Origin: an uncultured Bacteroidales bacterium
GTDB taxonomy: Bacteria; Bacteroidota; Bacteroidia; Bacteroidales; UBA932
Assembly (NCBI GenBank): GCA_949297365.1
Contig: CASFSL010000009.1
Coordinates: 1 to 64,000, forward strand
Length of the DNA: 64,000 bases
Direction of reading: 5' to 3'
The position numbers were made by a program, and so were the translations under genes. The notes under the pieces are model-generated. The model saw only the letters and a program-made list of their open reading frames with translations, was not told where the DNA came from and did no database searches. Of the stretch, positions 155-58,062 are shown one piece after another. Positions within the stretch are counted from its first letter, which is position 1; each line of letters opens with the position of its first letter.

Positions 155-526
155 GAACAAAAAAACACACCTGCAATAGTGTGGCTTAGATTTTTGAAAA
201 ATATTCCGTGGTTTAGCGGAAGTTACAGTTTAAATGATTATCTGATTATCCGCAAATATACCCTCTACAGCCTTCACTATGCTTTTTAGTTGAATTGCAT
301 ATGCTTGAATATGAATGCTTTGTCTATCCGGCGATATTTTAAGTGGGGCGAATTACGCTTAGAATGAGCCTTTTTGTCGTCATTTAACCTTTTGCGAAAA
401 ACACAAAACCCAGCCAATCAGGTGGTTGCAATACAACTAAAAAGCAACGTGAGGATGCCGGGAGGATTGGACCGGAAGAGCGGAATGCACCGATGAAAGT
501 GTCGTAGGTGACGGATGTGGCGTGTA

Positions 527-655
527 GGCAGGCGGGGAGAAAAGACTTGCCGCCCTCGGCACAAGAGGGAAGAATCTGCCTTGAATATCACAGAGTTACG
601 GAGTAACGACGATGATATTCAAGGTAGAGGGGCCTGGTCTTTTCGACCGCCTGCC
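527..655. repeat. Palindromic module A (nested hairpin)
   Basis: The outer arms are 527-546 (GGCAGGCGG...AAAAGAC) and 637-655 (GTCTTTT...CCGCCTGCC). Inside them, 579-590 (CCTTGAATATCA) pairs perfectly with 613-624, and inside that GTTAC (595-599) pairs with GTAAC (603-607). One outer arm, GGCAGGCGG, recurs at 56576-56584 next to another copy of module B. Confidence 0.75.
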
Positions 656-695
656 TCCAACGCTGTCAGAGGAATGAGTGGGGTATGCGGATTCG

Positions 696-743
696 CCGGG
701 GAAAAGTGCCCGGGATTCGCACTGAATTGGTACACTTTCCCGG
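696..743. repeat. Palindromic module B, copy 1
   Basis: The arms are CCGGGGAAAAGTG (696-708) and CACTTTCCCGG (733-743), separated by a 24-nt loop. A second copy of arms and loop lies at 56526-56569 in the same orientation. Confidence 0.75.
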
Positions 744-853
744 TGGGGCCAGGGAGGATGGCCGCATGGTGGGAGATGGCAGTGCCTGCCGGGGACCTGT
801 CCTCTGTCGCTTTTGAGAAGTCCCTGATAACTAAGCGAATGCAAAATGGTGCG

Positions 854-910
854 GAGGATAGGGGTGTCCGAAAACCGTCAAAATGCCCGGAATCCGCCAC
901 CCCTGTCCTC
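854..910. repeat. Palindromic module C, copy 1 (31-bp core between 13-bp inverted repeats)
   Basis: GAGGATAGGGGTG (854-866) and CACCCCTGTCCTC (898-910) form a 12/13 inverted repeat around a 31-bp core (867-897). The core is 30/31 identical to 57688-57718 on the same strand, although the sequences flanking the two modules match only in reverse complement. Confidence 0.8.
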
Positions 911-1285
911 GGCCTTATTTGCATATGTTCTTGAGTACAAGTGAGTTGTTATTATGTGGCACAGGATAGGTGTCGTGGGCATGGCAATGGACTTGGATGA
1001 AAGTCGTGGGAAAAGTCGGGAGTACTTGCCCGGCGGCTCTTCTCCTGCCTTGAGCCGCGTAAAGTAATAGCCGTAGTCTGGCTGATGGCCTGGAAGAACT
1101 CCACAAGCCTGTCACTGCTGACATTGCGCGATAGCTGTGGCCTGGCCGGATTGGTTCTTTGGATTTTGGTGTCGCAGAGCCTTAAGCCGGGTAAGGTGTC
1201 AGATATAAGGGGATCTTTGCGGATAATCATTATTTTTTATGGAGGCGGAAAAGACGGAACGAGGAGGCAGTTGGGGGAAAAAGAG

Positions 1286-56525: not shown

Positions 56526-56584
56526 GGAAAAGTGCCTGGGATTCGTACTTAACAGGTACACTTTCCCGGTGAGGAGGCAGGCGG
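56526..56584. repeat. Palindromic module B, copy 2, plus module A arm
   Basis: GGAAAAGTG (56526-56534) pairs with CACTTTCC (56559-56566). Loop and arms match module B at 696-743 in the same orientation. Immediately after, GGCAGGCGG (56576-56584) matches the outer arm of module A. It sits between two divergent small genes. Confidence 0.72.
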
Positions 56585-56644: not shown

Positions 56645-57037
56645 ATGAAGCAAAGTTCGTATTGGTTGAGAATGGGTGTGGTGGCGTTGGCCGCTCTGGT
56701 GGTGGCGGTGCTGTCGCATTACTTCTGGGTGAGCGGGGAGAAGGACCTGGTGTACTCGATAGGCAGCAGTGTGCCGATTATCGCCGCGGTGATAATCCTT
56801 CTGCATTTTGCGAATATGCAGAGAGCAGGCTTCGACAAGATGCGCCTGTCATACGGGTGGAGCCTGACAGTTGGGGCTCTGGTGCTGGTAGTACTGGATT
56901 TTCTCTCGTACTGGCTGCTGTGCGGGACTACTCCTTTAAAGGCACTTGTCATCGGAATCGTATGTCCGTTGATTACAGTTCTGGCAATAATGGTCTTTTA
57001 CAGACCGGGTAAAAAGGCGGAAAAGAAAAATTTTTGA
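56645..57037 (+). CDS. Small membrane protein, unidentified, ending inside element R2
   Basis: The 130-residue protein has four predicted spans (MGVVALAALVVAVLSHYFWV, SSVPIIAAVIILLHFA, LTVGALVLVVLDFLSYWLL and ALVIGIVCPLITVLAIMVFY) and a basic tail (RPGKKAEKKNF). No family is assigned. The last codons and the TGA lie in the AT-rich boundary of R2, so insertion of the element may have set or altered the C-terminus. Confidence 0.65.
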   Translation: MKQSSYWLRMGVVALAALVVAVLSHYFWVSGEKDLVYSIGSSVPIIAAVIILLHFANMQRAGFDKMRLSYGWSLTVGALVLVVLDFLSYWLLCGTTPLKALVIGIVCPLITVLAIMVFYRPGKKAEKKNF

Positions 57038-57138
57038 TTATCCGCAAAGATTCCCCCTGGCAGACCTCATACAGCTAAAGCCGGACTGAGCAGGAGATGC
57101 CGACGCGCGGCTCTACCACGTCCGCCATCATCCAACTC

Positions 57139-57387
57139 GCCGCTATACATTCTCGTCAACTTGCCACTATACATTCTCATTATATTGCATTTTGCTGATT
57201 AACAAGATGTTCTGCTTTTGCAAGAATGTCAGATGCTCCGATTCTCCTCAAAATACGGCATTTTGGGATGCTCCTTACATTTTGTGATTTTGCCAACACC
57301 GGGATTTACAGGCATTTCTGACTTAACGAAAATGTATAGTGGCATTTAGGACTGTGTCGTGATACGTCAACTGTGTCGTGGTACGTC
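57139..57387. repeat. Repeat-bounded insert within R2 (possible insertion-sequence remnant)
   Basis: GCCGCTATACATTCTC (57139-57154) and GCCACTATACATTCTC (57163-57178) are direct repeats. The inverted copy GAAAATGTATAGTGGC is at 57328-57343. Just beyond, ACTGTGTCGTGATACGTC (57351-57368) repeats at 57370-57387 with one change. Multiple end-proximal repeats of this kind occur in IS21-family termini, but no transposase code remains, so the family is a guess. The block has no counterpart in R1. Confidence 0.45.
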
Positions 57388-57674
57388 GCGGGACTTTTAC
57401 TCCGCACCGTGAGTGTCCGGCTTTGATGATCGTGTCTGGCAGACAGGTGCAATTATTACCGGACAGACGCAGAGAATGTTATGCTGCCGTCTCCGATTTC
57501 AGAGGGTGACTCTCCTTTGCCAGGCCCCAGGCTCAATGCTGGGGATGCTACCTGGTGGGGACTCCCGACCTTTCCCAACGGCTTTCATCCAAGTCCATGG
57601 CCATATCCTCGAGACCTATCCTGCACAGGGTGATGACAAATCGCTAGTGTTCAGGCATGTATGTGAAAGGGCCC

Positions 57675-57731
57675 GAGGATAGGGGTGGCCGAAAACCGTC
57701 AAAATGCCCGGAATCCGCCACCCCTATCCTC
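57675..57731. repeat. Palindromic module C, copy 2
   Basis: GAGGATAGGGGTG (57675-57687) and CACCCCTATCCTC (57719-57731) are perfect 13-bp inverted repeats around a 31-bp core (57688-57718). The flanks match the reverse complement of the flanks at 854-910, but the core matches in the direct orientation. Confidence 0.8.
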
Positions 57732-58062
57732 CGCACTGTCTTACATCCGTCTCGTTATCAGTCACTTCTTAAAAACAGCGGAGGACAGGTCCTCGGCAGA
57801 CACTGGAGTGCCTCCACGCCATCCCCGTCACCTGCGACATCTTGCACCGATGCATTTACGGAATGTGCGGGCATACATTCTCCTTGACTGTCCTAGGGGT
57901 ATCTTTGCGGATAATTATTAAAAATTTTTGAAAATTTTTTGATTTTCATGCAACGAAATGCAACAAACCTGCATCTATGTAGTAGGTTTAGGTTTTAGTA
58001 CACAAGGAAGGGGTACCTGTTGTAGCAGAGGGGTGCCTCTTTTTTTATGTCTTAATTTATTC

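Follow-up and report, generated by a model that had tools for sequence, protein, structure and literature searches.

Two copies of a short hairpin module, each built from a 31-nt core between inverted arms, are found in the window, by which we refer to the whole 64,000-nt stretch of Bacteroidales DNA that was analyzed (Table 1). Six reading frames beside or within the copies were compared with Pfam; four belong to ordinary families (FtsX/MacB, transaldolase, YfhO and MFS) and two were unmatched. The two cores are identical at 30 of 31 nt when both are read on the plus strand, and the arms pair at 12 of 13 positions in copy 1 and at all 13 in copy 2. A repeat search of the window placed the cores in a direct repeat of 69 nt (90% identity, 845-913/57666-57734), which is itself enclosed by an inverted repeat of 236 nt (72% identity, 780-1015/57570-57805). 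This arrangement confirms the original prediction of same-strand cores within flanks that align only in reverse complement. The accompanying description of 31-bp cores between 13-bp repeats is accurate in that such modules exist, but the boundary of the turning segment is a 12-bp box, GAGGATAGGGGT. Specifically, only the segment within GAGGATAGGGGT...ACCCCTATCCTC turns, and in the copies inspected the two variable bases that follow the 12-bp box move along with the core.

Table 1. Positions of the carrier elements, boxes and hairpins in the window.
Feature	Position	Strand	Details
MITE-like element, copy 1 (class 2)	242..1230	+	TIR 242-264 (3 mismatches) and 1208-1230 (2 mismatches, reverse)
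Inner hairpin, copy 1	579..624	+	12-bp arms CCTTGAATATCA/TGATATTCAAGG, 22-nt spacer; opposite in paralog L079
Box 1, copy 1	795..804	-	ACCTGTCCTC
Central hairpin, copy 1	854..910	+	GAGGATAGGGGTG + 31 nt + CACCCCTGTCCTC; arms 854-866 and 898-910, core 867-897; orientation A
Box 4, copy 1	962..971	+	CAGGATAGGT
MITE-like element, copy 2 (class 1)	57034..57918	-	TIR 57034-57056 and 57896-57918; flanks opposite to copy 1
Outer box, copy 2, left	57614..57623	-	ACCTATCCTG
Central hairpin, copy 2	57675..57731	+	GAGGATAGGGGTG + 31 nt + CACCCCTATCCTC; orientation B, flipped relative to its own flanks
Outer box, copy 2, right	57781..57790	+	GAGGACAGGT

Each module forms the central hairpin of one copy of a non-coding, MITE-like element, a description of the carrier that is based on its terminal inverted repeats (TIRs), its target duplications and the empty site of copy 2. 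The latter element has AAAAATTTTT on either side, and its insertion site is empty in genomes G013, G018, G016 and G015 and takes a slightly shorter empty form in G012; copy 2 arrived by insertion. For the copy 1 element a clear target duplication was sought and none was seen. Of the 27 core copies identified across genomes, 13 are enclosed by a pair of TIRs (ATGATTATCCGCAAAGATACCCC), 7 have a single one and the remaining 7 have none, when up to 5 mismatches were allowed within 1.5 kb of each copy and with some copies lying close to contig ends. A 9-bp target duplication is clear at locus L060 (TCTTAGGAA) and is found with a 1-nt offset at L079 (ACTTTTTAA); at several other copies checked it was not clear. 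The TIR pattern was also scanned in 19 genomes of the genus, and no autonomous partner element was seen among the matches examined further. In one TIR pair approximately 2 kb apart (L181, 1114-3171, G007:C88), there was no open frame longer than 150 codons. We considered L064 as an old, decayed copy and dropped this reading; homology to close relatives ends at the insertion, which makes a separate insertion more likely. Searches of the open-licence literature by title and abstract (MITE/Bacteroidales, MITE/hairpin/inversion and Coprenecus/repeat) yielded no recognizable description of this element family.

Several further features of the elements were observed. Bacteroidetes promoters contain the motif TAnnTTTG, and the TIR read outward (for example at 1208-1230) carries TATCTTTG-like letters that resemble it, so the elements might drive neighboring genes. 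A hairpin-like direct repeat (88% over 49 nt) is shared between 700-748 and 56526-56574, the second copy lying outside the copy 2 element. Positions 515-665, inside the copy 1 element, form a long hairpin with an RNA fold of -81.9 kcal/mol (z -10), the edge of which (542-570) matches the second hairpin repeat discussed below.

With respect to the distribution of the core, a search with up to 3 mismatches gave 11 matches in the 2.28-Mb source genome (12 with one Y position) and 0 for the reversed pattern used as a control, so the repetition of the core is not due to chance. The same threshold applied to 59 genomes, the source genome counted, identified 27 copies in five of them (G000, 12; G013, 10; G015, 3; G016 and G018, 1 each), and the reversed control again gave 0. 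All five genomes fall in one Bacteroidales genus, with Candidatus Coprenecus among the named records. In assembled contigs an exact 25-mer was present in 12 stretches from four named MAGs, namely Candidatus Coprenecus stercoravium, with a single stretch, and three MAGs labelled ‘uncultured Bacteroidales’, with 9, 1 and 1. Model R1, run on 199 genomes of the family, matched in 7; the strong matches are in 5 genomes of the same genus, and inspection by eye showed no outer boxes at the weak ones, 3 of which lie in G087 and 1 in G034. A phage or plasmid origin was considered and set aside: one viral contig has a short core match and no boxes, the box-spaced pattern matched none of the viral contigs searched, and there was no plasmid match. 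A structured RNA was likewise rejected, as an Rfam gathering scan of the window returned tRNA only. The module folds well as both RNA (z -5.5) and DNA (z -3.3), as palindromes do, and irregularities of the stem are of the T-G as well as the A-C kind on one strand, so that neither RNA strand is favored.

Relative to its flanks, the core is in orientation A in 19 of the 27 copies and in orientation B in 7; the remaining copy (L064) is unclassed owing to its divergent flanks, L074 was classed from one flank, and L080 was classed by reading, its motif score being tied. Both orientations are present in three genomes (G000, with 8 A, 3 B and 1 unclassed; G013, with 7 A and 3 B; G015, with 2 A and 1 B), and G016 and G018 each hold 1 A. 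All 7 B copies belong to flank class 1, whose other 6 members are A. On a tree of the flanks from 24 copies (L064, L067 and L074 were omitted as too different or chimeric), 5 changes of orientation are needed (4-5 on bootstrapping), at least 2 of which are forced by well-supported branches, and the orientation labels cluster no more than shuffled labels do. Taken together, these counts uphold the original prediction that the core has inverted relative to its surroundings and show that it has done so recurrently; the tabulation across this genome and its relatives did not show one fixed orientation apart from a single ancient event.

Flips of the core itself were seen between paralogs only. We found no orthologous locus with a differing core hairpin, and at the two core-bearing loci common to genomes (L062/L069 and L062/L069/L082) orientation A is retained. 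L064 and L184 have flanks that are about 72% alike and cores that are opposite, which is weak evidence for flipping, as the cores are of different types and the alignment is loose. L066/L074 was left uncounted as an orthologous flip, since past one flank (96.5% identity over 1.6 kb) the two loci share only short matches. This restriction to paralogs leaves room for the main rival explanation for the core, namely that element copies recombine or undergo gene conversion, in which case the core with its inverted arms would be copied either way and orientation would thereby be shuffled. Module halves have indeed been exchanged: in the chimeric L074 and L174, class 1 homology and homology to the module beside an aldose epimerase gene are joined at the hairpin. 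Also in line with exchange, the epimerase locus of G013 resembles a recombinant of two modules, and the core of window copy 2 carries C where other class 1 copies carry T. Arms of 12-14 bp are, however, short for RecA-type recombination.

Further evidence against exchange between copies comes from a second hairpin repeat, to which the related module adjoining the aldose epimerase gene pointed. A search with this repeat returned 70 matches across 9 genomes, and 40 loci (41 copies) were compared; 27 of the 40 loci form 9 groups whose flanks are collinear. The interiors agree in 5 of these orthologous groups and run in opposite directions in the other 4 (L334/L342; L349 versus L353 and L336; L339/L361; L340 and L345 versus L358 and L365). 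L349 and L353 have their flanks and arms in common, together with GCCACGYAGTG, an interior variant private to the pair (2 of 41 copies), and L334 and L342 have common arms and GCACCGGAGGT, likewise in 2 of 41. These private variants indicate that in each case one insertion was turned in place, and together with the flipping of an ordinary hairpin outside any repeat family (below) they render exchange between copies unlikely as the source of the flips. The other two groups were not counted: L340 and L345 are opposite to L358 and L365, but their arms differ, and L339 and L361 are opposite, but their interior variants differ. At the epimerase locus, the second-repeat interior is reversed in G013 relative to G000 and G018; the outer hairpin there was not counted, because its state is explained by recombination of two modules. 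A difference of another kind separates L348 from L352, which are 99.6% identical over 1394 nt and differ at one hairpin junction. The left junction of L348 is the exact complement of its right junction, the one case of arm perfecting; of 41 copies, 1 has this form and 22 have the other. At loci L329-L368, the second hairpin repeat lies within locus-specific inverted repeats, as if it had inserted into existing hairpins.

In-place inversion extends to hairpins of other sequence. Across 164 locus pairs, each sharing a collinear match of 600 nt or more, a scan detected 27 pairwise inverted segments, 10 of which are core hairpins and some of which count one place twice; the loci had been chosen for their repeats, so the scan yields no rate. 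Those segments that were inspected are hairpins. One, an ordinary hairpin whose 11-bp arms enclose a spacer of 14 nt, is inverted in L072 relative to L172 and L175, inside a 3-kb match (93.8% identity) between L072 and L172. Another is the inner hairpin of the copy 1 element (579-624), where a 22-nt spacer is inverted between paralogs. The arms of at least four flipping hairpins (GAGGATAGGGGT, AAATATAAAGC, GGATAAATACAGCA and ATTCCCGGAAC) are unrelated to one another. What the flipping hairpins have in common is palindromy, not arm sequence.

This finding bears directly on the first reading offered by the original prediction, site-specific inversion, in which a recombinase would recognize the inverted GAGGATAGGGGT boxes and flip the core as a switch. 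The geometry of the module lends itself to such a proposal. The boxes are conserved (up to 3 mismatches in 10 positions were allowed) and their spacing is fixed: in 7 of 13 modules 61 nt separate box and arm in both halves, and in the other 6 one half has 61 nt and the other 59. The interior between the arms is exactly 33 nt in all 21 palindromes that 19 genomes yielded with 28-38 nt allowed, most of these palindromes being closely related. In one G000 module, moreover, the segment between the direct boxes 2 and 4 is deleted. Nonetheless, hairpins with unrelated arms flip as well, orthologous loci included, which argues against a site-specific recombinase, and by eye none of the 27 displayed modules had a flipped spacer between its other inverted box pairs. 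Considering also the one instance of arm perfecting, we regard a dedicated recombinase as very unlikely and site-specific inversion as unsupported.

The rigid 61-33-61-nt geometry of the module is a puzzle in its own right. Ungapped comparison of spacers from 9 modules (153 pairs) gave a median identity of 36% (range 16-94%) versus 26% for shuffled sequences, which shows that the spacers have diverged strongly, but not wholly. Eight picked cores share A-tracts centered near positions 7, 16.5 and 26.5 of 33, a 10-bp periodicity that was reached by 0 of 5000 column permutations among cores that are related by descent. The module is present in TIR elements and also where the TIR ATGATTATCCGCAAAGATACCCC was not found. 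At the epimerase locus, a segment of approximately 4 kb that separates two modules is missing from G013, whereas G016 has most of it at that place; this segment (L171, G000:C31 6797-10866, compared with L296, G013:C29) contains a WG-repeat/caspase-domain gene. With its fixed box spacing, diverged spacers and phased A-tracts, the module could be a dedicated site of DNA-protein assembly whose bound complex would promote recombination at the boxes (core inversion, half exchange and deletion between boxes 2 and 4). We consider this proposal rather doubtful; were it true, the modules would actively reshape the genome.

An artefact of assembly, in which repeat copies were misjoined, was also weighed. 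Every one of the genomes is assembled in fragments, the four named among them being MAGs, and contigs may end inside elements, as with G000 contigs C31 and C10, which have a 128-nt end in common. Core arms of 12-15 bp are nevertheless shorter than the k-mers that assemblers usually employ, flipped junctions show locus-specific arms beside a reversed interior, and both forms recur in several genomes, all of which makes misjoining extremely improbable.

We therefore favor hairpin-mediated template switching, which the original prediction had raised as its alternative and which best fits the flipping of hairpins with unrelated arms and the perfecting of one arm. It is probable, in our assessment, that the core flips recurrently by this route during replication, without a dedicated recombinase. 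In such a replication error, synthesis at a hairpin would switch to the complementary arm on the other strand, copy through the loop and switch back, leaving the spacer reversed in place; the same switch could also render the arms perfectly complementary. The process would recur wherever hairpins have good arms and would need no dedicated enzyme. Consistent with this model, spacers are reverse-complemented in place between collinear flanks at orthologous loci of the second repeat and at one ordinary hairpin, and between paralogs for the 31-nt core. Spacer inversion and arm homogenization are both given as products of template switching in the cited parts of PMC8604942, where spacer inversion in yeast is reported only with arms longer than 9 bp and the events involve 2-5 substitutions. 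Loop inversions in rRNA genes, those of bacteria included, are mostly of 4 and up to 8 nt in the material cited from PMC8794818, and small inversions in plastids are described in that from PMC6824564 as always bounded by hairpins. Against template switching, the spacers here (14, 22, 31-33 and approximately 80 nt) are longer than the cases in the cited parts of PMC8604942 and PMC8794818, 5 of the 9 orthologous second-repeat groups are unflipped, and 2 of the 4 opposite groups are not clean. As for why inversion of the core would be tolerated, the core may act as an A-tract-phased spacer; inversion moves the tract centers by about 1 base, and their positions would thus hardly be altered.

One bacterial genus thereby provides a natural collection of hairpins at which comparison of relatives makes several events legible: inversion of spacers from 14 to approximately 80 nt long, the perfecting of an arm and the swapping of module halves. 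Such a collection could serve to measure how often hairpin template switching occurs and within what size limits. These observations also serve as a warning that a short segment inverted between inverted repeats in a Bacteroidales genome is not necessarily a recombinase-driven switch. The rigid four-box geometry and phased A-tracts stand as an unexplained signature of the MITE family.

In terms of known systems, bacterial MITEs are short, non-coding elements with terminal inverted repeats, a target duplication, many copies and empty sites. The element described here shares each of these properties, and it differs in having a central four-box hairpin module of fixed geometry. Like gut Bacteroidales invertons, as characterized in the portions of that literature considered here, it presents DNA between inverted repeats in both orientations; unlike them, its flipping hairpins have no arm-sequence specificity, and no switched promoter was identified. 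The closest parallel is with template switching at short inverted repeats as set out in the cited parts of PMC8604942 and PMC8794818, which likewise features in-place reversal of the spacer, arms of about 11 bp or more, conversion of an arm to the exact complement and repetition over evolution, whereas our cases have spacers of 14 to approximately 80 nt and lie in bacterial intergenic DNA and mobile repeats. Plastid small inversions, in the account cited from PMC6824564, are similar in their hairpin-bounded loops and several orientation changes on a tree, and differ in that the present case is bacterial and lies within a family of transposable elements. Seen against these systems, the finding is a known mutational process that here takes an unusually long and recurrent form, set in a mobile repeat family with a rigid module that is unexplained.
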